From assembly GCA_009778715.1 (NCBI GenBank), contig WRFR01000007.1:1-59003 (forward strand): a stretch of DNA of 59,003 bases, read 5' to 3'. The number at the start of each line of letters is the position of its first letter. Within the stretch, counting starts at the first letter, position 1. Under the pieces are notes generated by a model. The model was not told the origin of the DNA. It did no database searches and was given only the letters and a program-made list of their open reading frames with translations. Shown piece after piece: positions 3,001-23,624 of this stretch. The DNA comes from Coriobacteriia bacterium. Lineage in GTDB: Bacteria; Actinomycetota; Coriobacteriia; WRKU01; WQUG01. Position numbers and translations under genes: made by a program.

Positions 3001-3699
3001 CAACGTACGGGTCGTCGCGACTGTTCCCGGTGTAAAGTTTTCAGTATCCCAGCGTTCATTATTGATATAGTACAGGCGCAGAGACGCTGTATTCTGGGCG
3101 TTGGGGTCGCGTTCTTGCATACCGGCGTCATTGGCGCAGGAAAGGATGAGAGCATAACCTGTGTAGTAGGTGTTGGCGCCTTGTTGCGTCATCTCCCCGT
3201 TAAACAGGTAGCCCGTCTCAGAAAATGAGTGGAAGTTCATGTTGTCAGGGATCAGCGTGAAAGAGCTGCCCGAAGAGGTGGCGGCTTCTGCTGGCGCAAA
3301 GACATAGTCCATATAGGGCATGATGCCATAGCCATAAAATGATATCTTTGAACCTGACAGAACTACGTGATCGGGAGTGGCTACGCCACCGTTCCACTTC
3401 GCGGACTCTGCCTGCGTGTAGGCTTGCTCGTAGCCCTGTAGAGGCCTGCCGTCTGCTTGCAGCACGCTGGCGTCGTTGTGATCGACTTTGTTATATGCAA
3501 GCTCGTCTATAGTAGTGGCGTTCGTTGCCGGGTTATAGGGATAGTTGGAGATAACATCTCCCACGGGGCCTGAGGCTTGGGCGGTCTGCGGCGGCGCGGA
3601 CCCTAACACCTCACAAATCACGACCAGCGCAATCGCCAGGCTCAGGGCACGCTTCCAGGTTGCCGTTTTTCTTCCCTTGATTGCCAGTGCCCCCATCAT
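1..3699 (-). CDS. BspA/DUF285-family repeat surface protein, C-terminus cut by window edge
   Basis: The frame is open from an ATG at 3699 (SD GAGAAGGGG just upstream; a second ATG follows directly) to base 1, 1,233 codons without a stop. The N-terminus has a basic start and a hydrophobic segment (ALSLAIALVVICEVLG, near residues 18-33), which looks like a signal peptide. A LamG-like beta region follows (about residues 80-270), then a MucBP-like stretch (VNFVEQGTGTVLRIPE, near 315), then 16 repeats of 26 residues with consensus FNTSAVTNMSYMFYGC plus SSLTSLDLSS (about residues 598-1014). Such DUF285/BspA repeats are known from secreted adhesins of gut and oral anaerobes. After the repeats lie two copies of a DWQDSYKP motif and a Thr/Val-rich beta domain. 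The wall anchor, if any, lies outside the window. A role in attachment to host or neighbouring cells is inference. Confidence 0.9.
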   Translation of the reverse strand, partial: MMGALAIKGRKTATWKRALSLAIALVVICEVLGSAPPQTAQASGPVGDVISNYPYNPATNATTIDELAYNKVDHNDASVLQADGRPLQGYEQAYTQAESAKWNGGVATPDHVVLSGSKISFYGYGIMPYMDYVFAPAEAATSSGSSFTLIPDNMNFHSFSETGYLFNGEMTQQGANTYYTGYALILSCANDAGMQERDPNAQNTASLRLYYINNERWDTENFTPGTVATTRTLIATIKTGIHNLDPTPFRVSTEIDPTTRAVKVYVDGTLVATVTNPIGGANGPQGFGYYTGYYAHDCNILTRISYEDATINVEAIPPTPTTSTVNFVEQGTGTVLRIPETEDGVAGQKYKITQPLTVIGKDDGITYYLVGNDYSGPNRSDITRRYAADPASNVTTLYYSAATDLKSQPPRKDARVNGGDWDAGAPDAPVSVAAGDTIDYTVTAYAPSTPTAMIMQGSSGAATTTDWLNQTGTSTVRPTGSTLSGPLQKGQISSASFVDLPDDLTYSAADPASAVKQFLANRSDWAGQAILEAWDATETNTTINPNVATSRVIAWITADGSGGYNLYIGGQAGVLMSASTALSFLFNNFSRMSTCNLDQFNTASARNMYDMFYGCSNLTSLDLSSFNTSAVTNMSMMFSGCSSLTSLDLSSFNTAAVTDMSLMFFNCPNLTSLDVSNFNTSAVTTMVSMFYNCSSLTSLDVSSFNTSAVTSMINMFFGCSGLTSLDVRNFNTSAVTNMSGMFNNCNRLTSLDVSSFNTSAVKDMSNMFYGCSSLTSLDVRSFNTSAVTTMASMFYGCSSLTSLDVRSFNTSAVTTMSYMFSYCSGLTSLDLRSFNTSSVTNMSYMFYRCPSLTSLDVSSFNTSVVTSMSWMFGYCSSLTSLDVSSFNTSAVKDMSVMFFQCSSLTNLNLSNFNTSAVTNMANMFYGCSSLTSLDVSSFNTSAVTNISYMFRDCSNLTSLDLSNFNTSAVTNMSYMFFGCKNLNSLAINHFDVSKVNMFDAMFASCTQLTSLDLSYWSLGAVATATTTTMFQGCNQLTDLYLESAPLDQLTTTQPAWFSNNTVTVHVGSVVARDWVAAQSTQPGGGIVIDSVPDPALRPQPTNWQDSYKPAGSAWMDSYDPADPDAWRDFLTDWQDSYKPPAASGSGGGGWTTISDDIPEGLSIKSVSGTESADSLDDAITWQVSGQSVTWSVPNSMLPATVTVTVTVDTGLEDGKTFDNIAYVGSDPTNLTYH
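657..1906 (-). repeat. 78-bp tandem coding repeats (16 units)
   Basis: Consecutive units begin exactly 78 bp apart (for example GTTCGTCACCGCTGA at 787 and again at 865) and encode the 26-residue leucine-rich DUF285 units of the surface protein. Inner units are nearly identical in DNA and the outer ones diverge, as expected for copy-number change by recombination. They are direct and coding, so this is not a CRISPR array. Confidence 0.92.
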
Positions 3700-3732
3700 G
3701 CCCCTTCTCCCTCTTTACCGTGATCGCTCACG

Positions 3733-4374
3733 TCAGTACCTGATATGTGAGGAGGCGGTCGCCGTTTGGGCAACGCTTGCCCGAAGCGACGCGCGCGCGT
3801 CGTAAAGTCTTTTGTGGATCGTTGCCACAGAACTATCAAGGGTTTCCGCAACTTCTGCGACAGAAAGCCCCTGGTAGTAATGCAGAAAGACCGTGATCTT
3901 TTGGGTATCGGTCAGCCCGTTGACCAGGCGCAGCAAATGCGCGCGATTCTCTTTGGCCTCCAGAGACTCAAAGGGCAAAAGCTCAGTATTGGCGCACGCA
4001 GGCATCCTGTCGTCATTTTCTTGAAACGTGTCCAGCGAATCTATCAGCTCCGCAGGGCTATTCTTGCGCAGCCAGTCAAACGAGCGTCGGTAGACGATAG
4101 AGAAAAACCAGTTTTCAAAGCGCTCAGATTCACGAAGCGTATCAAGCTTGGTAAAAAGACGTAAGAATGAGTCCTGGGCTACGTCTTCTGCGGCGGACTC
4201 ATTGCGTAAAATCTTGAAGGCGGTAAAGTACGCGCGTTGATAGTAGGCGTTATAGAGTTTTGAGAATGCATCAGAGTTACCGGACCGTGCGCGGTCAACC
4301 ATAGAGGGAAGCTGCTTCAAATCAGTCTCCGAGAGGCTTCCTCTTTTCATTTTCCTATCATTATTATCAGCCAT
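3733..4374 (-). CDS. ECF-type RNA polymerase sigma factor
   Basis: The product is 213 residues from the ATG at 4374, chosen because GGAGGAACG sits directly before it; a longer open frame to 4437 lacks such a site. Sigma-70 region 2 is visible (FSKLYNAYYQRAYFTAFKIL, then AAEDVAQDSFLRLFTKL and FENWFFSIVYRRSFDWLRK), and region 4 with a helix-turn-helix (LTDTQKITVFLHYYQGLSVA, then EVAETLDSSVATIHKRLYDA). This is the two-domain plan and length of ECF sigma factors. It lies 33 bp upstream of, and in line with, the BspA-like gene, so it may drive or be co-transcribed with it. No anti-sigma gene is visible next to it, which is unusual; its control is unknown. Confidence 0.9.
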   Translation of the reverse strand: MADNNDRKMKRGSLSETDLKQLPSMVDRARSGNSDAFSKLYNAYYQRAYFTAFKILRNESAAEDVAQDSFLRLFTKLDTLRESERFENWFFSIVYRRSFDWLRKNSPAELIDSLDTFQENDDRMPACANTELLPFESLEAKENRAHLLRLVNGLTDTQKITVFLHYYQGLSVAEVAETLDSSVATIHKRLYDARASLRASVAQTATASSHIRY

Positions 4375-4859
4375 CGTTCCTCCTGACACACCGTCCACGG
4401 TATAATTTCGCGCATCCGAAAAAACGAAACGGCGCATCCCTTCATATAGGTAGACGCCAAAAGAATCGGAAACTTACAAACTATTTAATAATTCCTCGCA
4501 AATTGATCGGAAATTAATGAACTTTGTTCAATTCTTAACAGATTTGTTAGAAAATTATAGGCTTTTTTCGATTCTTAACATATTATCACTGATTGATTGT
4601 TTGAGGTCGATTGAGCCCTGAAATAAAGGACTCACGTGGTGGCGCTATCTATAGGGGAGATCCTAAGGTCTTGCCCGGGATGACGAGGGCGCCCAGAATG
4701 ACGAACTTGTGCTATCGATGTATTGCAGATAGAAAGAGGTACTCTGTCACTTCATCTGGCAAGGCGGGCAAACGAGCTGTGAGGGAGCGGGCTTTCGCCC
4801 GTAACCGAACAAGCGAGAGCAGCCCAACACCACCAGATGGAGCGACAGAGTACCGTAAC
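4375..4859. other. Gene-free AT-rich interval upstream of the sigma factor
   Basis: No convincing gene is present. On the minus strand a TATAAT lies at 4554-4559. The 10-mer ATTCTTAACA occurs twice, 40 bp apart (4531-4540 and 4571-4580), and a short palindrome TGAACTTTGTTCA lies at 4518-4530. These could be promoter and operator elements for the sigma factor. The right part (4738-4854) is a separate inverted-repeat element described on its own. Confidence 0.5.
4738..4854. repeat. 117-bp element with 22-bp terminal inverted repeats
   Basis: The left arm (4738-4759, starting GGTACTCTGTCACTTC) and right arm (4833-4854, ending GGAGCGACAGAGTACC) are complementary at 20 of 22 positions, and the other two can form G-U pairs in one of the two transcripts. 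The interior holds a smaller hairpin (CGGGC, loop TTTC, GCCCG near 4788-4801). It starts 5 bp after the stop codon of the export permease. It could be a MITE-like relic, a structured 3' RNA end or a terminator. No flanking target duplication is visible. Confidence 0.6.
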
Positions 4860-8612: not shown

Positions 8613-8784
8613 GATGTCGTGGTCCTCACTTCCTCCTGAAAATTGCAGTTTTATTCTCCTCTTCTCCAGCGCTGCCTTAAACCAGAAAGAGAGAGTTTAC
8701 ACACTTGCTCTATATAGGTACGCAAAACTTACGCAAAAAAACTCGAACCCAGGAAAAGATGCTCGGCACTATTCTGTCGCTTGA

Positions 8785-10086
8785 TTATTTCCAATTCTTC
8801 ATATTCCCGATCGCAAAGAGAGGGATATTGTGCATCCAGCTCTCATTGCGATACCCCGAAAGTGAGAAGCGACGCGGATTCATGCCCTTGTATTTCTCGT
8901 TGAAAGCACGCAGGCTCTTGGAATGCAGGTTCTCTGCGGCTTTGACTTCAATAGGGTAGATTCGATCCTCATCCTGAACAAGAAAATCAATCTCGCCGCG
9001 GGAGTTTTCGGCAGACCAATAGAATGGCCGTAGCTCACAATCAGATATAAGCTGCTGACAGACAAACTGCTCTGTCAGAGCGCCCTTAAATTCCTCAAAC
9101 ACCTGGTTTCCACTTATCACGCTGCTCATGCAAAGCCCAGCCATGGCTCCGAGTAACCCCACATCAAGCGCAAAGAGCTTGAAAGCAGACTCGTCTACAT
9201 ACGCTGAAAGCGGAGCGCCTGGTTTTGAGACGCGGCGCACGCAGGCAGCAAGCCCAGCTTCTGTAAGCCAGGTGATCCCTGAGTGATAATTCTTGGCCCG
9301 AGCGCCTTCTTTAATATGCCCGAATATGAACTTCTTGTTCTCCTGCCCCAAATGAGCGGGAATTGAGTCCCATATAGCAAGGGCATATTCCGTCTCCGAC
9401 ACCGTGAGATGCTTGGTGATATCACGGCGATAGTCAAAGAGTATTTGGTTCTGTATGCTGCGTGCGTCATCAAGAACGCCGCTCTCTGCAAACGCCAGGA
9501 CAGCTTCAGGCATTCCGCCAACAAAGTAATACTGCCGCAACAAGGAAATAATCTTAGATGAGAATGCTGAGACAGCAGCAGCATCTGCAGCATCAATGAT
9601 CTCTCGAAGCGACTGATTGTCCGTCGCGTCAAGAAATTCACGGAAATTCAGAGGGTAGAGATCAAGTGTCGTGACATTACCCACAGGGTATCCCGTCCCC
9701 TGGTGAACAGCAAGTCCGAGAAGCGACCCAGCAGCAGCAATCATCTGCCCTGGAGCGTTCTCCCGAAAGTACTTGAGCGAAGTCAAGGCCTTCGGGCACT
9801 CCTGTATCTCATCAAAGATAATTAGGGTTTTGCCTTCGACGATGCGCTCATGCGCCTCTGCCTGCAACCCCGTGAGAAGACGCGCGCTATCATAACCCTC
9901 CTCAAACAATAGGTTCATCGCTTTGTTATTGTCAAAATTCACATAGGCAACGTTGTCGAAATACCGCGCGCCGAATTCCTTGAGCAGCCATGTCTTACCT
10001 ACCTGACGAGCTCCGTTGAGAATGATCGGCTTCTTGCGACGACTGCTTTTCCAGTCAACAAGCTTTGACATCAATTGACGTTCCAT
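8785..10086 (-). CDS. AAA+ ATPase with C-terminal DUF4143 domain
   Basis: The product has 433 residues. Walker A is GARQVGKT (25-32) and Walker B is LIIFDE (88-93), preceded by the sequence RQLMSKLVDWKSSRRKKPII usual at the start of this family. The C-terminal half carries a restriction-endonuclease-like DUF4143 domain (RGEIDFLVQDEDRIYPIEVK near 365-385, with the D...E-K pattern). These proteins are common, horizontally mobile and of unknown biological role; defence or nucleic-acid handling has been suggested. The gene stands alone with its own TATAAT-containing upstream region, and the export operon follows downstream. Confidence 0.9.
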   Translation of the reverse strand: MERQLMSKLVDWKSSRRKKPIILNGARQVGKTWLLKEFGARYFDNVAYVNFDNNKAMNLLFEEGYDSARLLTGLQAEAHERIVEGKTLIIFDEIQECPKALTSLKYFRENAPGQMIAAAGSLLGLAVHQGTGYPVGNVTTLDLYPLNFREFLDATDNQSLREIIDAADAAAVSAFSSKIISLLRQYYFVGGMPEAVLAFAESGVLDDARSIQNQILFDYRRDITKHLTVSETEYALAIWDSIPAHLGQENKKFIFGHIKEGARAKNYHSGITWLTEAGLAACVRRVSKPGAPLSAYVDESAFKLFALDVGLLGAMAGLCMSSVISGNQVFEEFKGALTEQFVCQQLISDCELRPFYWSAENSRGEIDFLVQDEDRIYPIEVKAAENLHSKSLRAFNEKYKGMNPRRFSLSGYRNESWMHNIPLFAIGNMKNWK

Positions 10087-10309
10087 GGCAGCCCTTTCAT
10101 CTGTATCAATACATCCTTATTATAGCCCAAGAGTGCTAAAATAAGGACGTATTTTAGCATATTTTGGCTATTTTAAGGACGAATGAGTTGTCATGCGTAG
10201 CTTAAGTGGTAGCCTGTAGCTATTTCCAAAGAAGAATTCTCCGCAATTTTTGTTATTGCACTGAACATATTTGAAGCCTGCCCAGCTCGTCGTAGCTGTA
10301 ATTGCGCTA
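10087..10309. other. Intergenic interval between divergent genes
   Basis: Apart from the inverted repeat and TATAAT of the ATPase promoter (10118-10158) I see no gene, RNA or repeat here. It separates the minus-strand ATPase from the plus-strand AbrB/PIN operon. Confidence 0.5.
10118..10158 (-). promoter_or_regulatory. Promoter region of the DUF4143 ATPase with a perfect inverted repeat
   Basis: On the minus strand a TATAAT hexamer lies about 35 bases before the ATG at 10086. Just upstream is a perfect 9-bp inverted repeat, GCTAAAATA (10135-10143) and TATTTTAGC (10150-10158), with a 6-base spacer AGGACG that recurs once more to the right near 10175-10180. This looks like an operator at the -35 region. 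No convincing -35 hexamer is seen. Confidence 0.45.
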
Positions 10310-10359
10310 TTGAATGGCTGCGGCAAATAGATGCTATAATCTAATAAGGTTATTAGATT
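10310..10359 (+). promoter_or_regulatory. AbrB/PIN promoter with a 22-bp perfect palindrome
   Basis: A -35-like TTGAAT (10310-10315) and a perfect -10 TATAAT (10335-10340) are 19 bases apart. Overlapping the -10 is a perfect palindrome: AATCTAATAA (10338-10347), GG, TTATTAGATT (10350-10359). A symmetric site on the -10 directly upstream of an AbrB-fold antitoxin is what is expected of the autorepression operator of a toxin-antitoxin operon. Confidence 0.75.
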
Positions 10360-10378
10360 TAGGAGATAGGTGAATATC

Positions 10379-10651
10379 ATGTCTGAAGCGATCATGGATC
10401 TCTCGACTGTGACAACCAATGGGCAAGTGACTATTCCGGCTGAGGTGCGGCGGCTTCTCGGCGTTAAGCCGGGCAATAAAGTCCTGTTCTTCCAACGCGC
10501 AAATGGTGATGTAGTCATCGACAACGCATCGGTAGCCGCTATTAAAAAAGCTCAAGCAGCTTTTGCTGGAGCTGCTGAGGAAATTGGCTGGAAAAGTGAT
10601 GATGATGTTGTTGAGACGGTTATGGAGCAACGCTACGGACGTAATGCCTGA
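10379..10651 (+). CDS. AbrB/MazE/SpoVT-fold antitoxin
   Basis: The product is 90 residues from the ATG at 10379 (AGGAGATAGG upstream at 10361-10370). A GTG at 10370 is in frame but overlaps that site, and an ATG at 10394 is a further possibility. The N-terminus has the swapped-hairpin signature STVTTNGQVTIPAEVRRLLG followed by VKPGNKVLFF, and the C-terminal half is a helical tail that would wrap the toxin. Its stop overlaps the toxin start (TGATG). It should bind the palindrome at 10338-10359 and neutralise the PIN protein. Confidence 0.88.
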   Translation: MSEAIMDLSTVTTNGQVTIPAEVRRLLGVKPGNKVLFFQRANGDVVIDNASVAAIKKAQAAFAGAAEEIGWKSDDDVVETVMEQRYGRNA

Positions 10652-11037
10652 TGCGGGTAATGCCTGATACTAACATCATCATTTCAGCTTTGATGTTTCC
10701 GGACTCAAAGCCTGCTGAGGTACTAACCCGCATTGCAAGTCGACATGAAATGGTATTGAGCAGTTACCTCATCAACGAGGTTGAGAGTGTTCTGCGTTTG
10801 AAGTATCCGAAGCTTCTTCCTGCGGCACAGGAGCTATTTAGCACGATGTCTTTTGAGCTGGCAGTAGAGAGCGACCAGGCTGATGTCGTTATCGCTGACC
10901 CAAAGGATCAGCCCATTCTTGATGCTGCTGTTTCAGGTGAAGCGGATGTCATTGTGAGCGGCGATAAACACTTCAAGAATCTAGATATAAAGCGACCAAA
11001 GGTGATGAGCCCGTCAGAGTTCCTGGTGCTGGAATAG
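10651..11037 (+). CDS. PIN-domain ribonuclease toxin (COG1569-like)
   Basis: The product has 128 residues, or 125 if the second ATG at 10660 is used. Acidic residues expected of a PIN nuclease are visible: D in MPDTNIIISAL near the N-terminus, E in INEVESVLR in the middle, D in DPKDQPILDAAVSG and D in IVSGDKHF near the end. This is the pattern of the 'putative toxin-antitoxin toxin component, PIN family'. It should cleave RNA with Mg or Mn. It is coupled to the AbrB-fold antitoxin by a one-base overlap. Confidence 0.87.
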   Translation: MRVMPDTNIIISALMFPDSKPAEVLTRIASRHEMVLSSYLINEVESVLRLKYPKLLPAAQELFSTMSFELAVESDQADVVIADPKDQPILDAAVSGEADVIVSGDKHFKNLDIKRPKVMSPSEFLVLE

Positions 11038-11227
11038 CGCCGACTGTCCCTTCTGAAAAATGGGACAAATTTGGGACAAATGCCTTGAAAAGTGCCGACT
11101 CCCAGTGATCCCTCATGATTTGTTTGCGTATACCTACGACAATAAACCACTAGCGTATTTTCAGCGCAGTGCAATTCTGATGCGGGAATTACCGCGCTTA
11201 TCGCTTCGCCTTTTACTATGTGCTTTA
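11038..11227. other. Convergent intergenic region
   Basis: This lies between the ends of the PIN toxin (+) and the M16 peptidase (-). A 6-bp stem TGTCCC (11045-11050) / GGGACA (11062-11067) and a short GCGG...CCGC hairpin near 11190 are the only structures seen; neither has a good U-tract. No gene was found. Confidence 0.4.
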
Positions 11228-12499
11228 TTACAATTCTTGCCAGATTTCCTGCACGTCAGCCTCGGTAAAAGGTATATTTTCAGACGCTATTGTTATTGTT
11301 GTATTTGAAGGGCGGAAGATCAGGCCAGCCACTTCCGTTAGTCGTTCACGAGTGATTGCATGGTTACGCTCTATCATGGTTTCTACATCAATGACCGGCT
11401 TACCCCTGACCGCCACCCATCCCAACTCTATATTGAGATCATCGCATTCATCAAGCCGATACCAAAGATTGTCAGTAAAAAACGGCGTGGTTACAGTAAA
11501 GTCTCTCGCCGAGATGCCGTGTTTGAGTTGATGGAGTGCGGCCACTATCTCCTTTTGAGCCAGAACCGCCTTTTTGTTTTCTACCGACAGCGCAACATTA
11601 AAAACAGCCTCATGAGCAAATATCTCCGCCGTAGCATCAATCTCATAGGACAAACCCAAATCCTCAGAAATGAGCTTGGGTAAAACAGAACTTCCCGAAC
11701 TTCCAACAAGATTACTCAGGAAGAGAAATTCGTTTTCGGCAATAACCGATGTATCAACATCAAATGATATACGAAGATCAGTGTCGTCATACTCCCACTT
11801 TTTTAATAAGACGTCGGGAGAACGGTTAAACTGTACAGAGCGACCACTTTCATCCGAAGCTTCAACAAGATGGTTATTGGGCAACGACAACCCGCCGAAC
11901 AGATCATCAATATAAGCGCAGTCATCGGCTGATATATCTCCCGTAACAACAAGCCATACATTTTCTTTGCAGAAGAACCGCTTCTTATGACGAACTATAT
12001 CATCCAGATTCAATGCCTTTATTGAAGCCTTTGTACCGAGTGGCAACAAAGAGAGCGGGTGCGACTTCCACATGGCCTTTGCCTCATCAATGTCTAAATC
12101 CCAGTCAGCTGGCTTTTCGCGCAGCTCATTAAGTATGATTCGCCGCTCTGCATTGAACTGCTGCTTACTCCAAGGGGTATCTTGAAAGATATGCTCAAAA
12201 AACCAGAGCGACTCCCTTAGGTAGTGCGGTCGTATTTGCATCAAAAAACGAAGCATTTCTTTAGAGGTCGCCCCGTCTAATGATCCGCCAATACGCTCAA
12301 CCTTATAGCGTATTTCATCTTGGGATATCGCACCCAATTGCTGGAAATGCATATGCTCCAAAAAGTGAGTTATCCCATTATTGGCAGGGGTCTCGAATCG
12401 CGAACCTACTCCTATATAAAGTCCAACAGTGACAGAGTGCGCCGTCGGTACGGGATAGTAAATTATCCCTATCTCGTTCTCTAGTTTTTTCACTTGCAT
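11228..12499 (-). CDS. M16-family (insulinase/pitrilysin) zinc metallopeptidase
   Basis: The product has 423 residues. The inverted zinc motif HxxEH is present as HFLEH (residues 45-49), and the third ligand fits E125 in IILNELREKP, 76 residues after H49, as in active M16 enzymes. The C-terminal half has the usual second lobe (LVGSSGSSVLPKLISEDLGL). There is no signal peptide, so it probably acts in the cytoplasm unless exported in another way. It starts 20 bp after the stop of the giant RHS gene and is probably co-transcribed with it; a role in processing or clearing that protein is speculation. Base composition is more AT-rich than the housekeeping genes to the right. Confidence 0.9.
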   Translation of the reverse strand: MQVKKLENEIGIIYYPVPTAHSVTVGLYIGVGSRFETPANNGITHFLEHMHFQQLGAISQDEIRYKVERIGGSLDGATSKEMLRFLMQIRPHYLRESLWFFEHIFQDTPWSKQQFNAERRIILNELREKPADWDLDIDEAKAMWKSHPLSLLPLGTKASIKALNLDDIVRHKKRFFCKENVWLVVTGDISADDCAYIDDLFGGLSLPNNHLVEASDESGRSVQFNRSPDVLLKKWEYDDTDLRISFDVDTSVIAENEFLFLSNLVGSSGSSVLPKLISEDLGLSYEIDATAEIFAHEAVFNVALSVENKKAVLAQKEIVAALHQLKHGISARDFTVTTPFFTDNLWYRLDECDDLNIELGWVAVRGKPVIDVETMIERNHAITRERLTEVAGLIFRPSNTTITIASENIPFTEADVQEIWQEL

Positions 12500-12518
12500 T
12501 GTTTAGCCTCAGTTCTCT

Positions 12519-15500
12519 TTACACATACTTGCTTTTTCGCACAAGCACCCACCTATTAACGTAGATAGGCCTGCGCACTGTTCTGGCGACACGAATGGTT
12601 CTTGCTCGTGGCACTCGAGCGACCACAACCGCAGGCGCGAAAAAGCAAGGTAAAAGATAGATCACGACCACATATACCACAACAATTGTGACTACAGCTA
12701 CAAACGTCATCCATACAATAGTACTTCTATGTTCCCAAACCCAAGTATACACTCGACGAGCCGCGCGACCACCCGTCCCTTGCTTTTTTCGATTGTGCAC
12801 CTCTGCTTCAGGGTGCGCATCATTTTTGTTTCGCCCATTTCGATTGTTGGGCTTTTTTGGCTTATTCTTTTTGGTGCTTTTTTTCTTGTGACCTGTTGGA
12901 TCAGTATTATTTATTGGATCATTTGAACAATACGAATACAAGTTATTAGTATCAGGATTTTCATTTTCACCTCTATAGGTGTCTTGAGTCAAGAAGTAAG
13001 CATTAATTGGGTTATAGTACCTGGCATTTAAGTAATATAATTTCGTGCTCTCATCATAGATGCCACCGGTATAGGCGATCTCGTTATAGGTGTCTGCATC
13101 TCCTGAACGCTTTGTTTCTCCAAAGTCAGAATAGGTGTAGGAAAGAAGGTCTGTGCCGTCATCAGCCAGTACGCTGCTCGTTGAGTTACGTATATCGGTT
13201 GTGTAGGTAAGATACTTGTCTGCCTGATCGCCACCATAGCGCTTAGAGGAGATAATCTCTCCACCGTCTCCGTAGAGATTAAAGCTTATCTTTTGCCCAG
13301 AACTATTGGTCGTGTAAAGAACTTGTCCTGATTGATAAGCGTAGTTGGTGGTCACATCCGCTTCGGTCTTTGAGATGCGTTGACCATCACCTCGATAAGC
13401 ATTGGAGTTAAAAATAGTGGAGCCCTGCTTTACCTGCGTCAGATGGTTATCTATGTCATAAGAGAAACTCTGGGTTATTCCTGGGCCTACTGAGGTAGTC
13501 TCATTACCGTCTTCATCAGTACTAGTCGTAATCGTCTTGTCTGTGATTTCAGCTATCTGGTTACCATTTGCATCATAACTGAAGCTTGCGGTTGCCGCCC
13601 CAATCTGTTTTTTCGTCATCTGGTTCAGGCCATTATAGATGGCATAGTTCTCTTCGCCATCTATGCCCTCCATCCTGCGGTTGCCGATTGCATCATAGCC
13701 ATACGTGAAAGACTCAGTGCTGCCTTCTATATTATCGGTGACATCAGAAGAGATAAGCCTGCCAAGTTCATCGTAAGTGTATTCACGTACCTGATCGGTG
13801 GTATCTTCTCCCGGATAGTTAGTAACATGCTCTTCAAAGATGATCTGAGAACTCTTGTTGTAAGAGTAGTCATAGCCATCTAAGTTATTACCAAAGCCCT
13901 CATAGCCAAGCGAGATTACTCGGCCAAAGTCATCATAGCTGTATTGCTTGATAAGATACTGACTGCTTCCCTTAGCAAAGCCGGGGTAATCTTTGAGATA
14001 AGATACTCTTCCCCAATCATCATAATTGTATTGACGAAGTGTCGCCTCTCTTGTAACGGTTCCTGTCTTCAGCACTGCCTTGATCTGAGAGATGCGCCCC
14101 TGGTTGTCATAGCTGTATTTCAGGGCTACCGGGGCATTGGTGCTATCCGCTACGTCTTCAGGATAATCGCGCTCGATTAGACGTCCCGCGCTGTCATAGA
14201 TATAGCAAGTCTTGTCTTTATCGGCGATATGCTCTGGATCTGCTGGTATTGACGTCCCCTCATAGCTGCCTGTAAGCTTGCCTGCTTTATCGTAATCGCT
14301 GCGCTGATAGTAGATAACCGTAGTGACAGATCCTTGATGGCGATAGTCCGTAATTGAGACTATGCGGTTAAAGCTGTCGTAAGTATTTACGCTGGAAAGC
14401 TCCAGCGTGCCATTGACGCGATACCATTTAGTCTCGGTCAGATTATCGCGCGTATCATAAGCGAAAGTCTTGTAGTCGCCATTGGAATAGGTTTCTTTTA
14501 CCTGCTGTTCTTTCCCGTTGTAGAGATAGCTTGTAGTAATCCCTGCCCCTGATGCAGCTGAAGCCTGCCCGAAGTCCGTAACAGAAAGTGTTTTACCTGC
14601 GGCGTCTTTAGTTGTCTTGCTCAGACGACCCAAGGCATCGGTGACCGTATCTGACGTCGTTTGATCTATCGGATCAATAGTATCGGTCATATAAGAAGTG
14701 ACAGGCGCGATCGTCTCCCGATTTTGATCTTGCGCCGAGAGACTTGACGAATTAATAATAACAGAGGTTTCAGGCTGGGTAACTGAAGCGAGTTCTCCTT
14801 TTGTATCGTACGTATAATGCGTCACCTGACCCAATGCATCGGTCTTCTCCTTTTCCTTGCCTTCGCTATCAAAGACCGATTGAGTGGTGATAGTATCATC
14901 GCCCAGATAGTAATGCCCGCCTGCATATAGTGGCTGCCGCACAGAAGCGATCGCGTTGCCGTTTTCGTCATAGAGGCTTAGATCGGTTTTTGCCTCTTGA
15001 CGGGAATGCGTCGCTGGCAAAGTGATCACGGCGAAAGCTTTTCCGTCTTTAGTATAGGTTGTATCAGAGTTAACCCCAACAGCGCTGTTGCGCACTTGCT
15101 GGTCAAGCTCATCGGTATAAGACTTCGTCACCACACCGGCAGGGTCAGTAGAAGTAGTAACGCCAGCGATAAGGTTCTTTGTCCCTGCCGGAACGTTCAA
15201 CGTGACATTTTCAAAGCCATAAGCAGTCGTGGAGACTTGCGCCGGACGCCCTTGGGGCACTACTGTCTTTGTCAGCGCCCTACCAAGCTCATCATAGAGA
15301 AAACTTGTCTGTGTTCCTAAATCATCAGTCTGATGATTGATGCTTCCGTCCTTGTTATATGTAGTCGTTGTTGTCTTGGCGTCGCTTCCTTCTTCCTGGG
15401 TGACTGTTGAGGTAGGCCTGCCCATAAAATCGTAAGTGTTGGTTGCCTTTATCCAATTTGTAAGCACACCAGAACTCAAAGTGCCGGTAGTATTTGAAAG

Positions 15501-18500
15501 TTCCCGAGCCAACCCGTCATAAGAGCTATCAGTCTCAGTGATGACATCCGGACTTCCGTAGGTGGTATCTACCTGTTTCGTAATATTGTCGTATTGGTCG
15601 TATTCGTAAGTTGTCTCGCTTTGGGGGACAGCGGCGCCTTGAGGAACTCCGTTGACATATTTCTGGAGAGAAGTAAGCGTACGTTTCAGATTGCCATTGG
15701 GATAATACTCACTTGTCATGGCAGATTCCTCTATACGATCCACATCTGAGGTTTCTTGGCCGTCAGCGTCATAATCCCACGCACCATCAGAAATAAGTAC
15801 GCCGTTTTCGTCATAAGTTTTCTCTGAGGTAACTTCCTCTTCGTTTATCGTGCCCGCGCTGTCATAGGTTGACTCAGTAATCGAACCGTTGTCTTCTACC
15901 GTTGTCGTTGGTAGATCCAAAGTATTGTATTCAGCCTTTGTGGTCTTTGGCACACTGTGAGTTTCAATTACTCCTGAACCGTCAATGCTGTGATAGTCGC
16001 TATCAGCTGTAGAAGACATCAGCAGGTAATCCTGATAGACATAGCTCGTATGACGTGCGGTCTGATTTGCAACCTCATCTGGAGTGCCGGCCCAGGTATC
16101 TGCCATAAGTCCTGCCGCGCCATAGGTTGTCTTCGTCTCGCGAGTAGGGGCGGCTAGCTCTGCCGGAGTATAGTAGCTAGAAGTGACTGGCTCTGTCATG
16201 TTCCCATAGACCAACTTGGTTATATCCCCGTGGGCATCTTCTGCGCCGGTTGCTTGCATTAGCGTGTCGAGCTGTCCGGCGGGGTTGTAGCTGATTTTTG
16301 TCCGCGGGGGCGCCTGCGTCTGTGAGTTTGCCACGCCATTTATAGCAGTCATATAGTAACGATCAATATCTGAGACTGGCTTCATGTAGTCATAAACGTA
16401 GGACACGTCATTATCTGACGTCTGTGGCAGATCCCCACTCACAAAGGCTTGCTCACTGAGATGTGTGGAGTAGTCGCGTACTTCTACTAAGCGTTTTTCT
16501 TGGTACGTGTAGCCGATCACCGTCTCATCGGGCAGCCAGACTACGCTGATAAGACCATCTGGATTGTGCGCAAAGCGTATTTTGCGCAGCCCCTTAGAGA
16601 CTACTTCCGTCAACTGCCCGCGCTTAGCGTCATAGCTTAGTACCAAGTTGGACTGGCTGTCATCTGCAAAGTAGGTATCCTGACCTGCAGGTAGCGCCTC
16701 ATCAAGCTGCTGAGCTTTTTCAGTAATATAGACCAGCTGCCCGCCTTGATTGAACCAGTACTCGCATTTCTTATCAAAGGTCACCACATATTTGACCAGT
16801 AAGACATCATAGGTATTTTCATTATTTCCTGACCCCTTTTGGGTCAAGACGCGTACTGGCTTTGGAGTGTCAAAGACTGTCAGGCGTACCCGTTTGGAAT
16901 CAGAGGTGAAGTAGGTCTGGTTAGGTTCATCCCAGGCAAAGGTGCGCAAAGTCCCTGTGTCATCTTTTAAGACATAGCCCTCTCCTGAGATCTGCTTGAG
17001 CAGCTCGACGTTATATGAAAAGTCGGTACCCAGCCCGAAGGGGAAAACAAGTGAGGACTGGGAGTTATAGGTACGCGTCACGCCATCTTTAAGCAGACTG
17101 TCAGACTCGATCGGTTTATCGGTTTGCGTGAAGACGAAGTTGCCCCAGCTTTTTTCGATCTGACCTGATCCGATAGGAGTAGTCACGCTCTCGTAGTCCC
17201 AGTAGTCCTGGGTCCCCAGACGTTTGGCAAGCTCATCGGAGTCTGCTACCGTAGAGGCGCTTACATTAGAGGGGGCGCCATAGTAGTTAACTGTTTTGCC
17301 AGCTACTTGCTCGGTTCTTACCGCGCGTACCCGATAATAGAGCGTCGTTGAGTAATCGGTATTAGGGGAAGCGAAGTAGTGCTCCTTAAGTCCCTCTGCT
17401 GAGCTCTTCCAGGTTCTGACTGGAGCGTTAGCATCAAAAGAGTACAGTACTTCATAGCTGATCTGTGGCAAGATATTTTCAGTTGAAGCACTATCCCAAC
17501 CCAGATAGGTTTTGTAGTCGAGCTTGTCACGTGCGATTAAGTTAGCAGGAGCTGCCTTCCCTAAGAAGTCGATCTTAAAGACATCAGGCGCGGTAAAGTT
17601 TGCAGTTACATTCAAGGAACTCAAGCTGGCTGTAGCCGTGCTGCCAACACTACGGTTGAGCACTACTTTAAAGCGGACGCTTGACACATAGAATTTACCG
17701 GTTTCACTATATGCAGACCAGCTATCTGCATCGATCTCTTTATAGGGCGCTCCGTCAACAGAGATATAGTACGAAATTGCTGCATCGCCGGTTACCTGCA
17801 CCTGATGCTGAAAAGAAAGTGAAGTAAAGGGCAAAGCCGAAGTCACTTCCTGGGTAACAAGTTCGGCAGAAGTGAAGTCGGCATCGAAGGTAAACGTGCC
17901 ATTTTCAAAATGCCCTCCGATGCAGTTGAAGTCTTGCTCATCGCTTAGGTTCGCTGCGTACAGGATTCCGGAGGCTTGTTTGGCAGTTGATGCGGCAATA
18001 GAGCTTGGAGTAGTAGTGCCAAGAATGGTGTAGTAATTGCCCTCGCCATAACGTGAGATGTCAGCAAAATCGTCAGCAAACGTTGGGTTTTGCGCAACAC
18101 TGCTGACATGCTTTGCTGGAATTCCATCAATATACCAATCAAACGCTGAAGAGCCATACGTCGAAGGATTAGCGAGAGCAAAGAGATCGCTTTTTGAGGT
18201 AATAGCGCCACCTGTAGGACAAGTAAGCCCTGAACCAGGCTGCCCGTAAAGCTCTGTTGAGGAGATTGGATTGTAGACATCAAGCGTAGTCTCGCTCACA
18301 TTGCCCATAAGGTCTTTAGCTTGAAGCTTGAAAGTGTAGGTCGCCTGTGCTGGGCGTTCTGAAGACAAGTCAAAGTAAGCAAGCGCACTATTAGTTTTTT
18401 CACTGTCCCCGCTACCGACAAGCTCGTAGCTGCTATCAGGATCTCCTGCCTCTTTAACGAAGACGTAGTAGCCAGAAAGATAGTCACTTAGTACGCTGCC

Positions 18501-21500
18501 TGCGAGAATACCAGCGCTCATCTGCGTAAGAGCAACATCTGGTCCTTCTGTATGCACGGTGACGGTAATAGAGCGTTCGTCACCAGGTATTCCCTCAGAT
18601 GACATTGCTCGCATCCAGATAGTGTAAGTACCTTCAATTGGAATATCGTGATCATCTACTGGGGTAAAGATGGTCAGGCTACCCATGTTAGAGGGGTCAG
18701 CGAACACTTCACTGTAGTCACTACGTTCCCCATCTTTCTCTATTGCATACTGGATACCTGTGCGTTCGCTCTGGCCTCCAAAAAAGATCCAGTTGATATT
18801 AAAAGCATTAGTGCTTTTTACAGTACTGTCAACGGTAAGAACTGGGGCCGCAAGTCGATTTGCGATTTGAAGATGAAGCGTCTTAGTACCGGCATCATTT
18901 CCGGCCTTGTCTTTACCGGCATAAATCAAATCATAGAGACCGTTAGGATAGGTATTGGTGATCAGAGAAAGCGTTGAGGACAGAGTTGCAGCAGGAGCAA
19001 TGACTGTTGAGCTTCCGTCTGTCGTATTTTCCAAAGTTAATGTGGCCACATCGATTCCACTGAGTGCCTCGGTCACCGTTGTAGCAATAGTGACCGTGTT
19101 GGTAACTACTGCCGGATTTGAAGAGGTACTCGTCGTGTCTGCAATGGGGTTTCCGGTGGGTCCGTCAGAAAGTTTGAAATCGAGTACCGGCGCCACCGTA
19201 TCTTTCCAATAGTTGATCAGGTAGGCTGTGCCAGTGTTTCCGGCCTTATCAACCGAGCGCACTCTAACCTCGTATTTCCCGCTGTCGGGAAAAAGACTTG
19301 CTGGAAGGGCTGTCGTGCCAGAAGTTGTGGCTGCAAGAGCTGTCAGATCACTATAAGCGCCAGCTGTCGCCCCTGCTTTATTGGTCTCTACCTGCAACTT
19401 GAAAGTATTGCCGCTATAAGCAGGAGCATCGCTCAGCCCTGACCAGACAATGGCAGGCGGCGTAGCCGCGTTATACCAGCCAAAAGAGTTTGCCGCAGGA
19501 CTCAGTGTCGGCGTATTCATTTTTGGCGCCGTCGCATCATAGTAGTACGCATAGCTTTTTTCGGCGCTCAGGTTGCCTATCCGATCTTTAGCACGAAGTA
19601 CCAGGGTATGAGCACCGGCAGTGGTCGAGATAAAGTCTGCTGCGGTAAATGTGTAGGAGCCACCAGGGAGGGTAAAAGAGTTAGTTTTGGTAACCGGCAC
19701 ACTGTGTACAGCAGAAGTAGTGCCATCAGGACGTTTAACATAGGCTTCCAACGTAAATGCGCCTGCATTACAGACTGGTTTGTCAGTGGCTGAAGTCCAT
19801 GAAATGGTAGGAAGCGTTTTTGAATATGAGCTTGCTGTCGTAGCAGGACTTACCGGAGACGTTGGCATATTAAGAGTAGGAGCGGTCGTGTCAACATGGA
19901 ACCAGGCCCCTTTACCCGTACCTACCGCCCCATTTGAGTCATGTCCTCTGATATAGACCGCGTAGCAACCCTGGGTATAGCTTGTGATAGGTAGACTGTA
20001 GCCAGAGGTTGCGACACTGTTGGAAGTATAAGGTGAAGTAGCGTATTCCTTGACGTTGGTAGAGGCTGTACTGTGGGTTCCCGCTGCGTCCGTCGTTCCA
20101 TTGGCTATCCGGAGCTCTACTCTGTCCAGATAACTTGAGCTGATGCCTGTCCAGGTAATCTTAGGAAGAGGATTGCCGGGCTTCCAGGTACTTGGCGTTA
20201 TGGTTAAGGCTGTAGCTGTGGTAGGTGGATCAGTATAGGTCACCGTAAGCTTAGGACGATAGGAAGCGGTCGCTGTAGACTGACCGCAAAATTGAGTGTA
20301 ATTGCTTAAGGTCTCATCTGATTGTTTGAGCATCAGGCCATATCCGGGAATAGTCCCGTTTGCTACCCCCTGTACCCAGCTTTTTACATCAAAGGAGATA
20401 TCATAGCTGGTAGTCCCTGTTGCCTTGCTGGCAACAGCTGTTGCGGCATAGCCTGGGCGGGTGTTCCAGCACAGGTCTCCGTAAGTATTGGTCTGCCCGG
20501 TTCCGGGGGTAAGCACCTGATGGACGGCGACCGTGATGTTTTTGTTATACGATGAGTTATTGACCTGGCGAAGTGTTAACGTGGCGCCTGTTACTGACTT
20601 TCCCTTAACGTCGCTATTGAAGTTTTCTCCTTTAAGGAAAGAACGCGAAGTCCCTTCGCTCCCCTTGCCAACCGCCATCACGGTGCCATAACCAACTATG
20701 CTGGCAAAAGATGACCCGCTTCTGATGAAGGTAGTAGCAAGCCCGGTACCGGTAGTGGTATTTGCGTAAGTACCCTGCCAGGTCAACGTGGGATCTACGA
20801 TGACTGGATAGATACGATCAGGACTCTGGAGATAGTCATTATCTACCACCAAAGTAAGCAGGTAGCTGTCCGGGTCATTCTCTTTCTGGGCTAACGTAAA
20901 ATAGAGCGCATCTGAAGATGCGCCATCTTTTGAACTATCCTTCATCGACGCTGCGGGAATTACAGCAACCACGTTAGTGGTGTCACGTGAATCAAGAAGC
21001 ATCACCGAGCGTCCGTCTTCTGAAAGCTGAGGGATTGTTCCTTTCAAGTTGAGATTATAGACAAAGGTATTGGCGTCTGGAACATCATCTAATACGATCT
21101 CTTCTTTAACACCAATATCCGAGGAAGTGTATTCAAGATGGGCTGAGTCGTTCAGGTCATAACGAGCCTTCAGAGGTACCTGTTCAGTATTGTTATAGGC
21201 ATCGGTGTAGCTCTCTTTAACTGATTCCGGGTTTGTTGGAATAGCCGGATATGCACTCTTCTTGATGTCTAAGTCATAGGCGCTATCAGCTGCAATAAGA
21301 TCAGTTTTTGCATCAGTAATCGTTTTTCCCGTGACAAGTCCATCGGCCTTGTTTGCTATCTCGCCAACGTGCGTTAAGTTTCCAAGATTCTGTGTTATGA
21401 AATCTGTATTCGTAACAGGGGAAAGATCGATCGTGTAATCGCCGTTGGTAAGAAGGAGCGGAGTTGAAGCATCTATCGTCTCGGGGAAGTATTGCTTCAT

Positions 21501-21890
21501 GTCTCCCGCAGCGTTTTCGTACCGGTAGCCAGCCCTATCACTTGATTTCAGCGTTGGGTCATAATCAACAAGCTTGCCGTCTTTATCAGCAAAGCGCACC
21601 GGCGAGGAAAAATACTCTGCGGTAGTCTGACCAGCAGCATCGGTATAGAGATTTGCGTCGGTCTCTTTCTTCAGTGTCGGAGGCGCCATAATCGCCGGAG
21701 GTTTTATCTGGGAAGCGAGATCTGACGTGAGAAGCGCATCAGTGGAAAGACTGCCTACCGCCATAACTGATGTTGGAGCAATAGCTAAAATCAGCACGAC
21801 TGAGAGCAGAAAACAAAGCGATCTGCTAAAAAGATTAGTTGAGTAGTTAAGGTTCTGCGGTGATGTCAACGATTGACTTGCCTGCTTCAT
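12519..21890 (-). CDS. Giant RHS/YD-repeat surface protein with a toxin-like C-terminal tail
   Basis: The product is about 3,123 residues from the ATG at 21890 (AAGGAAAG upstream; an in-frame ATG 12 codons earlier lacks a site). A signal peptide is evident (SLCFLLSVVLILAIAPTSVM, near 20-45). Then come a pro-region, a DNRLRE-like domain with paired secondary-structure repeats (about 390-570; AVHQVLTPGTGQTNTYGDLCW), several Ig/FN3-like modules beginning TAPT, a carbohydrate-binding-like part and a long array of YD repeats (YDxxGR/L, about 1,600-2,950). The RHS core is clear (YYLNARYYNPINAYFLTQDT, then NLYSYCSNDPINNTDPTGH). The 122 residues after DPTGH form a different, very basic tail with one long hydrophobic segment, in the place where WapA/RHS proteins carry exchangeable toxins. 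Three palindromes lie immediately upstream. Confidence 0.92.
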   Translation of the reverse strand: MKQASQSLTSPQNLNYSTNLFSRSLCFLLSVVLILAIAPTSVMAVGSLSTDALLTSDLASQIKPPAIMAPPTLKKETDANLYTDAAGQTTAEYFSSPVRFADKDGKLVDYDPTLKSSDRAGYRYENAAGDMKQYFPETIDASTPLLLTNGDYTIDLSPVTNTDFITQNLGNLTHVGEIANKADGLVTGKTITDAKTDLIAADSAYDLDIKKSAYPAIPTNPESVKESYTDAYNNTEQVPLKARYDLNDSAHLEYTSSDIGVKEEIVLDDVPDANTFVYNLNLKGTIPQLSEDGRSVMLLDSRDTTNVVAVIPAASMKDSSKDGASSDALYFTLAQKENDPDSYLLTLVVDNDYLQSPDRIYPVIVDPTLTWQGTYANTTTGTGLATTFIRSGSSFASIVGYGTVMAVGKGSEGTSRSFLKGENFNSDVKGKSVTGATLTLRQVNNSSYNKNITVAVHQVLTPGTGQTNTYGDLCWNTRPGYAATAVASKATGTTSYDISFDVKSWVQGVANGTIPGYGLMLKQSDETLSNYTQFCGQSTATASYRPKLTVTYTDPPTTATALTITPSTWKPGNPLPKITWTGISSSYLDRVELRIANGTTDAAGTHSTASTNVKEYATSPYTSNSVATSGYSLPITSYTQGCYAVYIRGHDSNGAVGTGKGAWFHVDTTAPTLNMPTSPVSPATTASSYSKTLPTISWTSATDKPVCNAGAFTLEAYVKRPDGTTSAVHSVPVTKTNSFTLPGGSYTFTAADFISTTAGAHTLVLRAKDRIGNLSAEKSYAYYYDATAPKMNTPTLSPAANSFGWYNAATPPAIVWSGLSDAPAYSGNTFKLQVETNKAGATAGAYSDLTALAATTSGTTALPASLFPDSGKYEVRVRSVDKAGNTGTAYLINYWKDTVAPVLDFKLSDGPTGNPIADTTSTSSNPAVVTNTVTIATTVTEALSGIDVATLTLENTTDGSSTVIAPAATLSSTLSLITNTYPNGLYDLIYAGKDKAGNDAGTKTLHLQIANRLAAPVLTVDSTVKSTNAFNINWIFFGGQSERTGIQYAIEKDGERSDYSEVFADPSNMGSLTIFTPVDDHDIPIEGTYTIWMRAMSSEGIPGDERSITVTVHTEGPDVALTQMSAGILAGSVLSDYLSGYYVFVKEAGDPDSSYELVGSGDSEKTNSALAYFDLSSERPAQATYTFKLQAKDLMGNVSETTLDVYNPISSTELYGQPGSGLTCPTGGAITSKSDLFALANPSTYGSSAFDWYIDGIPAKHVSSVAQNPTFADDFADISRYGEGNYYTILGTTTPSSIAASTAKQASGILYAANLSDEQDFNCIGGHFENGTFTFDADFTSAELVTQEVTSALPFTSLSFQHQVQVTGDAAISYYISVDGAPYKEIDADSWSAYSETGKFYVSSVRFKVVLNRSVGSTATASLSSLNVTANFTAPDVFKIDFLGKAAPANLIARDKLDYKTYLGWDSASTENILPQISYEVLYSFDANAPVRTWKSSAEGLKEHYFASPNTDYSTTLYYRVRAVRTEQVAGKTVNYYGAPSNVSASTVADSDELAKRLGTQDYWDYESVTTPIGSGQIEKSWGNFVFTQTDKPIESDSLLKDGVTRTYNSQSSLVFPFGLGTDFSYNVELLKQISGEGYVLKDDTGTLRTFAWDEPNQTYFTSDSKRVRLTVFDTPKPVRVLTQKGSGNNENTYDVLLVKYVVTFDKKCEYWFNQGGQLVYITEKAQQLDEALPAGQDTYFADDSQSNLVLSYDAKRGQLTEVVSKGLRKIRFAHNPDGLISVVWLPDETVIGYTYQEKRLVEVRDYSTHLSEQAFVSGDLPQTSDNDVSYVYDYMKPVSDIDRYYMTAINGVANSQTQAPPRTKISYNPAGQLDTLMQATGAEDAHGDITKLVYGNMTEPVTSSYYTPAELAAPTRETKTTYGAAGLMADTWAGTPDEVANQTARHTSYVYQDYLLMSSTADSDYHSIDGSGVIETHSVPKTTKAEYNTLDLPTTTVEDNGSITESTYDSAGTINEEEVTSEKTYDENGVLISDGAWDYDADGQETSDVDRIEESAMTSEYYPNGNLKRTLTSLQKYVNGVPQGAAVPQSETTYEYDQYDNITKQVDTTYGSPDVITETDSSYDGLARELSNTTGTLSSGVLTNWIKATNTYDFMGRPTSTVTQEEGSDAKTTTTTYNKDGSINHQTDDLGTQTSFLYDELGRALTKTVVPQGRPAQVSTTAYGFENVTLNVPAGTKNLIAGVTTSTDPAGVVTKSYTDELDQQVRNSAVGVNSDTTYTKDGKAFAVITLPATHSRQEAKTDLSLYDENGNAIASVRQPLYAGGHYYLGDDTITTQSVFDSEGKEKEKTDALGQVTHYTYDTKGELASVTQPETSVIINSSSLSAQDQNRETIAPVTSYMTDTIDPIDQTTSDTVTDALGRLSKTTKDAAGKTLSVTDFGQASAASGAGITTSYLYNGKEQQVKETYSNGDYKTFAYDTRDNLTETKWYRVNGTLELSSVNTYDSFNRIVSITDYRHQGSVTTVIYYQRSDYDKAGKLTGSYEGTSIPADPEHIADKDKTCYIYDSAGRLIERDYPEDVADSTNAPVALKYSYDNQGRISQIKAVLKTGTVTREATLRQYNYDDWGRVSYLKDYPGFAKGSSQYLIKQYSYDDFGRVISLGYEGFGNNLDGYDYSYNKSSQIIFEEHVTNYPGEDTTDQVREYTYDELGRLISSDVTDNIEGSTESFTYGYDAIGNRRMEGIDGEENYAIYNGLNQMTKKQIGAATASFSYDANGNQIAEITDKTITTSTDEDGNETTSVGPGITQSFSYDIDNHLTQVKQGSTIFNSNAYRGDGQRISKTEADVTTNYAYQSGQVLYTTNSSGQKISFNLYGDGGEIISSKRYGGDQADKYLTYTTDIRNSTSSVLADDGTDLLSYTYSDFGETKRSGDADTYNEIAYTGGIYDESTKLYYLNARYYNPINAYFLTQDTYRGENENPDTNNLYSYCSNDPINNTDPTGHKKKSTKKNKPKKPNNRNGRNKNDAHPEAEVHNRKKQGTGGRAARRVYTWVWEHRSTIVWMTFVAVVTIVVVYVVVIYLLPCFFAPAVVVARVPRARTIRVARTVRRPIYVNRWVLVRKSKYV
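12522..12887 (-). other. RHS C-terminal tail: basic linker plus hydrophobic segment
   Basis: These bases encode the 122 residues after the DPTGH boundary. The first 50 are Lys/Arg/Asn-rich (KKKSTKKNKPKKPNNRNGRN), then comes a hydrophobic stretch of more than 30 residues (STIVWMTFVAVVTIVVVYVV, then VIYLLPCFFAPAVVVARV), then an Arg-rich end. No nuclease or deaminase motif is recognised. A pore-forming or membrane-active tip, or a simple membrane anchor, would both fit. Confidence 0.55.
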
Positions 21891-21942
21891 AAGCTTTCCT
21901 TCCTCGCTCTCCGGTAATACAGACAAGATAGCAAGGATAACT

Positions 21943-22026
21943 CATGTGTTTTCACATGAATTGGGAAATTGAGCAAACTCATGTGATTTCACATGGTAGA
22001 TATCATCTCTCATGTGGATTCACATA
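21943..22026. promoter_or_regulatory. Three palindromic operators upstream of the RHS gene
   Basis: The 16-mers CATGTGTTTTCACATG (21943-21958), CATGTGATTTCACATG (21980-21995) and CATGTGGATTCACATA (22011-22026) share the form CATGTG-N4-CACATG. The first two are perfect in both arms and the third differs by one base. Start-to-start spacing is 37 and 31 bp. They fill the 154-bp gap between the LuxR-type regulator and the RHS gene, so they are candidate binding sites of that regulator. Confidence 0.8.
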
Positions 22027-22044
22027 TACTGTGAAAAGTGCCGG

Positions 22045-23463
22045 TTAAAACCTTAGATGCCGATACTTTGCAGCCAACACTCCGTGCGGTCGCACTCCCA
22101 TTTTTGACATAATATCCCCGATATGGTTTTGCGCAGTGCCCACATCAATAGTCAGCTCCTGTGCAATCTGCTTTGCGCTCATGCCCTCAACTATTAATTT
22201 GAAGACATCTATCTGCCGGGGAGTAAGCCGATACTTGGTTACAATACCTTGCAGAGACTCATTGGTTGTATCATCTGCCCGGTCATCTGGCTCAGTAATC
22301 TGATTGCTTTGCACGCGCGTAGCCAAGTAAAACAAAAACAAGAAAACAAGTAACGCAACAAGAACGATCGTCAGCGTTAGGGGAAACCCCCACCGTCTGT
22401 CAAAGTTCGTCTGTGAAATACCGAGCATATGCAGATTTAATAATCCCTCGCTGGCAAAGTAGACGAGCAAACCAAATCCCGCAATGAACCCCTTACGAGG
22501 ATGTCGTGCAGCCGCCATCATACAGAGGATGCAGACAAGAAACACGCAGCCCTTTTCTCCAAGATTGAGTACAATATAAATCATTGCATTTCCTGTAAAG
22601 GTACCATCGAGAAAAAGAGCGGCAAGACAGCCCAGCACCATCAACGCGATCGGAATAGCCAAATTCAGCACACTGAGTCGTCTATCAATCCAATACCCCA
22701 GAAGAGCAGCAAACGGGATCCGTAGGATGATTACCGCAAAATAAAGCCAAGGCACCTCTACTAAGCCACCTGGTATTTCCAGGTTTCCAGAATTCATCAG
22801 CTGGCCCAAAGCGATCAACAACACAAACCCCATCAAAAGGATAATCAGGTTACGCGAGGCAACGACCCGGCCTTTAGCAAGGTCTGCCGTTTTATTATCT
22901 CTACTGCTTTTTGGCCAACAAAAAAATATGACAAGAAGAAGCGCCATGAGGATCAGAAACCCTAATGTCGTAATGGACATCCTTGGAAGAAGATCTGAGA
23001 AATAATGGTAACCCATGCTAAGGGGAAACACCGCAACCGAATAAAGGCTTGCTGATATACCAGCTTTAAGTCCTAAATTTTTGATCGGGCCGCTTTCGAG
23101 AAAACTCACCAGGGACGCACAGATAAACAACCCGATCAGAATGCCAAATAGTGCACCCATGGGAAGCGAGAACGGCACCCTATCGACAACTAGCATCCCA
23201 ATGCTATAAAGCAAGAGAAGAAGTGGGGCTAAACTGCGAGAGGTACGACAAAAATCAGAAAAGAAATGCTCCAGCGCGCCATACAGCATAATTCCCAGAG
23301 GAATCATCAATAATACGCTGGCCCCTACCGCGCTGAATCGCCCACTGGTAGCGTAGATGAGTTCTGCAGCAATGCCAACCGCCACCATAGAGAGGCAGAG
23401 CATCAAAAATGGATAGGGTTTCCTGTTCTTTAATAAAGCCGGAGAAGATTTATCAAAATCCAT
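22045..23463 (-). CDS. Multi-membrane-helix LuxR-family transcriptional regulator
   Basis: The product is 472 residues from the ATG at 23463, 8 bases after GGAAGG; an ATG two codons earlier is only 2 bases from it. About 12 hydrophobic segments fill residues 15-385 in an MFS-like arrangement, and the C-terminus is a LuxR helix-turn-helix (LTPRQIDVFKLIVEGMSAKQ, then IAQELTIDVGTAQNHIGDIM). This one-component, membrane-anchored plan is abundant in Coriobacteriia, where few members have known ligands. It lies directly upstream of and in line with the RHS gene, with three identical-type palindromes between them, so it probably controls that gene. The inducer is unknown. Confidence 0.93.
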   Translation of the reverse strand: MDFDKSSPALLKNRKPYPFLMLCLSMVAVGIAAELIYATSGRFSAVGASVLLMIPLGIMLYGALEHFFSDFCRTSRSLAPLLLLLYSIGMLVVDRVPFSLPMGALFGILIGLFICASLVSFLESGPIKNLGLKAGISASLYSVAVFPLSMGYHYFSDLLPRMSITTLGFLILMALLLVIFFCWPKSSRDNKTADLAKGRVVASRNLIILLMGFVLLIALGQLMNSGNLEIPGGLVEVPWLYFAVIILRIPFAALLGYWIDRRLSVLNLAIPIALMVLGCLAALFLDGTFTGNAMIYIVLNLGEKGCVFLVCILCMMAAARHPRKGFIAGFGLLVYFASEGLLNLHMLGISQTNFDRRWGFPLTLTIVLVALLVFLFLFYLATRVQSNQITEPDDRADDTTNESLQGIVTKYRLTPRQIDVFKLIVEGMSAKQIAQELTIDVGTAQNHIGDIMSKMGVRPHGVLAAKYRHLRF

Positions 23464-23624
23464 TGACATTACCTTCCATAATACTGGATAAATTCTAATT
23501 TCACTTTTTATAGTATAACAATTCTCAACCAGCAGAAATGCATGATCGCATTCAACCTTAGGGTAGAGCTTAGAAGCTGAGAAAGGCTAAAATAAGGGCG
23601 CAAAAGAGCCGTTTCAGGCTATGA

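Follow-up and report, generated by a model that had tools for sequence, protein, structure and literature searches.

Some members of the Coriobacteriia encode large sets of LuxR-type proteins with 10-12 transmembrane (TM) helices, and in Eggerthella lenta three of these, DadR, HcdR and CadR, each respond to a specific catechol by activating a neighbouring enzyme gene (PMC9734109). The TM domains of these proteins are less than 20% identical to one another, and no operator motif for the DadR/HcdR/CadR type is reported in that study (PMC9734109). A search of the open-access journal literature likewise found no operator motif for LuxR proteins of the 10-12-TM type. The second group of known systems that bears on the present locus is that of the YD-repeat polymorphic toxins of Gram-positive bacteria, the WapA/Rhs proteins; in Bacillus, WapA is under the control of global regulators.

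The locus described here, in which a gene for a membrane LuxR protein directly precedes a giant RHS gene, lies in a stretch of 59,003 nucleotides of Coriobacteriia DNA (the window), where the following features were located:

8613-23624, no strand: low-G+C island carrying the luxR-RHS unit, G+C 37-50% versus 61-65% in the flanks
11228-12499, minus strand: M16 peptidase gene with a visible HFLEH zinc motif, 19 bp beyond the RHS gene; a neighbour outside the conserved unit
12519-21890, minus strand: RHS/YD protein, 3,123 codons from ATG, with signal-peptide-like start, DNRLRE region, RHS repeats and RHS core
21888-21904, minus strand: RHS ribosome-binding site and ATG, kept in the alignment of all three units
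21943-21958, minus strand: proximal operator-like palindrome, CATGTG-AAAA-CACATG, its right half broken in both units of the congener G002
21980-21995, minus strand: middle operator-like palindrome, CATGTG-AAAT-CACATG, perfect in the window and in both G002 units (CAGGTG-CACCTG in unit b)
22011-22026, minus strand: distal operator-like palindrome, TATGTG-AATC-CACATG (one mismatch), decayed in both G002 units
22045-23469, minus strand: 12-TM LuxR-type regulator, 474 aa, with twelve hydrophobic helices and a GerE helix-turn-helix (HTH) at residues 415-460 (PF00196, E 9e-12)

From comparisons of these sequences we propose, with a probability of roughly 0.75, that the LuxR protein is a dedicated membrane one-component regulator of the WapA-like RHS gene and would act through the inverted repeats that separate the two genes.

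The C-terminal HTH of the regulator is closest by sequence to the solved domains of GerE, DesR and NarL (structures 1fse and 1je8). The N-terminal part has twelve hydropathy segments and forms twelve long helices in a low-confidence structure model, whose mean pLDDT is 45 (three sequences) and which is reliable for the HTH alone. When compared with 59 TM-LuxR proteins from three genomes, the TM domain showed no phmmer similarity, and a strong similarity was found to one protein of the genome G346. Since TM domains of this type can be less than 20% identical to one another (PMC9734109), the phmmer result leaves membership in the 10-12-TM LuxR type possible. The original prediction had treated membrane LuxR proteins as numerous, a picture that does not fit the source genome, which has only three ORFs with PF00196; the numbers of matches in three genomes from a different Coriobacteriia family are 37, 83 and at least 150. 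Searches of viral contigs and of plasmids found no relatives of the regulator in either. The three genomes of the genus (G000 C29 L066; L064 G002; L067 G001) also share a further LuxR protein, which is about 600 aa long and contains two HTH domains in tandem; its flanks, where seen, are without an RHS gene.

The longest reading frame of the RHS gene (12519-21926, minus strand) begins at a TTG. The start whose ribosome-binding site is conserved in both G002 copies (AAGGAAGGAAAGCTTATG) is the ATG at 21890, and placing the start there yields the 3,123 codons and the 154-bp gap that had been given at the outset. The protein contains RHS repeats (PF05593), an RHS-associated core (TIGR03696, E 9e-17) and a DNRLRE N-terminal region (NF033679, E 3e-19), and its start, as read by eye from the sequence, is hydrophobic and signal-like. 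Its last ~120 residues are rich in Lys and Arg, with one strong hydrophobic stretch, and this C-terminus matched no family in the searches, toxin families included. The predicted RHS protein is probably exported and would act at the cell surface.

On the gene strand, the luxR stop is followed by the distal, middle and proximal sites and then by the RHS ATG at 21890, the site starts being 31 bp (distal to middle) and 37 bp (middle to proximal) apart and the proximal site lying 52 bp from the ATG. Re-reading of the sequence agrees with the earlier description of three CATGTG-N4-CACATG sites, two perfect and one with one mismatch, within the 154-bp gap. Such an arrangement is not readily produced by chance, in that 20,000 intergenic sequences simulated under a first-order Markov model included none with three sites and 6 with two. 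The palindrome is also not widespread: the genome-wide search that had been suggested as a check, allowing one mismatch, found five sites in 1.73 Mb (48 contigs), three of them at the luxR-RHS locus. Of the two near-matches elsewhere, one lies within a coding frame and the other overlaps a coding-frame start; this second one is found again in G002, probably because the site spells the beginning of a conserved protein. The centres of the half-sites are 10 bp apart, equivalent to one turn of DNA, which suits a symmetric HTH dimer. The region upstream of luxR contains no such palindrome, which agrees with the earlier view that the regulator does not seem to control its own gene from here.

Across the class, 398 genomes were searched, and the regulator proved to have close relatives in the congener G002 only, in two copies; G346 has a distant relative. 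When species genomes were scanned, the two G002 loci and no others came up, in the Coriobacteriia MAG Emb289P4bin29 (G002), whose name suggests an origin in the gut of an Embiratermes termite. Both G002 luxR copies directly precede an RHS gene, at two chromosomal places other than that of the window unit, and the order LuxR, sites, RHS is thus the same in all three close members of the lineage (three units in two genomes, both draft assemblies). The comparison of neighbours proposed beforehand therefore finds the LuxR-RHS adjacency kept wherever the sites are kept. The distant G346 relative does not adjoin an RHS gene. No LuxR neighbour occurs, within the stretches read, beside RHS genes found elsewhere in this family of bacteria (in G005 and, twice, in G007) or beside the third RHS gene of G002; a further copy, in G008, sits at a contig end, so that its upstream neighbour is outside the data.

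In unit a of G002 the LuxR protein is 70% identical to that of the window and the RHS protein (L013:745-6150) is 78% identical over 1,678 aa, after which it jumps to a different C-terminus that is without YD repeats and has a weak, below-cutoff match to Zn-dependent phospholipase C. The missing repeat region may reflect either a natural deletion or an assembly chimera. In unit b the LuxR protein is 56% identical and the RHS protein (L018:8492-15721; 2,409 aa) is only ~24% identical in the best local segment, with a C-terminus that carries a peptidoglycan-binding domain and a further unassigned stretch; both its ribosome-binding site and its signal peptide are nevertheless similar to their counterparts in the window and unit a. 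Downstream of the RHS gene of unit b is a lipoprotein-like ORF of 285 aa. The RHS C-termini differ among all three units, and no immunity gene was recognised after RHS, where small unassigned genes follow in both G002 units and the M16 peptidase in the window. By analogy with the RHS family, and given that both the C-termini and the downstream genes differ between units, as would suit polymorphic RHS effectors, the protein likely has a role in competition with other bacteria.

These comparisons also separate the M16 peptidase from the unit to which it had originally been assigned. The place directly after RHS is taken by other genes in both G002 units, and the M16 relatives in other genomes lie elsewhere and are 20-29% identical, so the peptidase was rejected as a conserved member. 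Its co-transcription with RHS in the source genome alone is possible.

A further hint at a connection between the regulator and the palindromes comes from a difference between units. The middle site reads CATGTG..CACATG in the window and unit a and CAGGTG..CACCTG in unit b, and is a perfect palindrome in every case; the left half of the proximal site is CATGTG in the window and unit a and CAGGTG in unit b. This one change is present in every intact half-site of unit b, three in all; one of them, the proximal left half, has a broken partner, and a change in such a half-site fits a shifted preference of the binding protein and not RNA pairing. The recognition-helix stretch of the regulator is GTAQNHIGD in the window and unit a and TTVQNHVNS in unit b, with one changed position corresponding to the DNA-contacting Lys192 of NarL. 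Compared with the window, the half-site bases of the middle site are identical at 12/12 positions in unit a and 10/12 in unit b, and the rest of the intergenic region at 71/115 and 63/114 positions, respectively. This pattern, with one informative change between units, is suggestive of half-sites and recognition helix changing in concert.

The unit occupies a sharply bounded island of ~15 kb. In the congener G001, homologues of its flanks (alr on one side and a MacA-like gene with ABC and FtsX partners on the other) are direct neighbours with ~0.3 kb between them, implying that the island was gained in the lineage of the window or lost in G001. Both G002 units are also low in G+C (46-49% versus 63%) and have other neighbours, and luxR and RHS are both of low G+C in all three units. 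The luxR-RHS locus is most likely an acquired cassette, and the shared composition, the island missing from a congener and the common gene order all favour the earlier claim that LuxR, sites and RHS form one unit. No tRNA was found at the island ends, and no integrase was seen among its ORFs. In G002, alr is followed by a different sequence than in the window, and a repeated and inverted GACAGAATTACCCC / TGACACA-type run (L203:5980-6400) lies after alr where the window genome has the island. The rest of the island (8785-11308) holds a gene for an AAA_14/DUF4143 ATPase, small unassigned ORFs and, on the opposite strand, a PIN-domain ORF; the similarity of this ATPase to one beside RHS in G005 was too weak for use. 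At the window edge (1-4437), which cuts it, is a gene for a large signal-peptide-bearing protein, beside a gene of the same orientation for an ECF-type sigma factor.

We infer that the regulator binds two or three of the inverted repeats just upstream of RHS, probably as dimers via its C-terminal HTH, and that the RHS gene would be switched by a signal that the protein perceives at or within the membrane. On the model of DadR, HcdR and CadR, a compound sensed in or at the membrane would lead to activation of RHS, and we weigh activation against repression at about 65:35, activation being favoured because the tested members of the 10-12-TM LuxR type are activators. If the protein is a repressor instead, it would cover the RHS promoter until a signal lifts the repression. 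In the three-unit alignment, a weak -10-like TATCTT was judged by eye ~20 bp past the proximal site and would place that site over the -35 region, and several sites upstream of one gene suit repression too. However, this guess finds no support in a sigma-70 promoter scan, whose matches in the region were no better than chance, with none in the RHS upstream gap, and the tested 12-TM LuxR proteins all point the other way (PMC9734109); we consider repression by LuxR the less likely direction.

The sites might instead belong to another DNA-binding protein, the adjacency of LuxR being incidental. The restriction of the sites to this locus (the two near-matches in coding frames or starts aside) argues against a host regulator, and at all three locations of this LuxR lineage the sites are present too, with a different sequence in the unit whose recognition helix is different, which makes this reading improbable. 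Finally, the palindromes could form RNA hairpins in a luxR-RHS read-through transcript and control RHS mRNA or its translation, and the 157-nt stretch does fold far better than shuffles (z -4.3, as would any such palindromes), with a hairpin possible over the ribosome-binding site in the window, but in both G002 units that hairpin is hardly more stable than in shuffles, the left half of the proximal site changed along with the other half-sites despite its broken pairing partner, an Rfam search gave no match and the spacers are A/T-rich and not stable tetraloops, so that we give this reading very little credence.

The preferred reading, direct regulation by the membrane LuxR protein, applies to one lineage. 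Beside the 59 TM-LuxR genes of the three genomes from another family, inverted repeats of several half-lengths with spacers of 0-15 gave no excess of the N4 layout, singly or as repeated pairs. A family-wide operator rule was accordingly rejected, and the findings are not, as they stand, transferable to the Eggerthella regulators. More tentatively, and with the odds against it, the membrane LuxR, operator and RHS start could be a spreading mobile, self-contained and orthogonal switch, in which each copy evolves its own half-site and helix and thereby avoids cross-talk between paralogues in one cell. We also speculate that, with the operator right behind the regulator's own gene, the membrane-inserted regulator may reach its site in cis while both proteins are being made at the membrane.

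The closest parallel remains DadR, HcdR and CadR, which share with the present regulator an N-terminal 12-helix membrane domain, a C-terminal LuxR HTH, very divergent TM domains, a gene adjoining the likely target and membership in the class Coriobacteriia. Unlike in those systems, the predicted target is a giant RHS surface protein and not a metabolic enzyme, and the unit lies on a low-G+C island with a candidate palindromic operator visible. The RHS protein resembles the WapA/Rhs toxins in its signal-peptide-like start, DNRLRE region, RHS repeats and core and C-termini that vary between copies, and is unlike them in having a membrane LuxR gene in front, a C-terminus (in the window) without a toxin-family match and no recognised immunity gene. 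The sites resemble NarL/GerE-type operators in having symmetric half-sites that suit the same HTH fold, and differ from them, as far as is known, in their 6-4-6 layout and their CATGTG or CAGGTG half-sites. The regulator type is thus known, while the RHS target, the operator and the co-variation are new as far as we could find. The locus thereby offers a concrete predicted operator for one LuxR lineage, along with two naturally occurring half-site variants that go with different recognition helices, and the proposed target would extend regulators of the DadR/HcdR/CadR kind beyond metabolism, with a hint as to how expression of the RHS surface proteins in this group is turned on.
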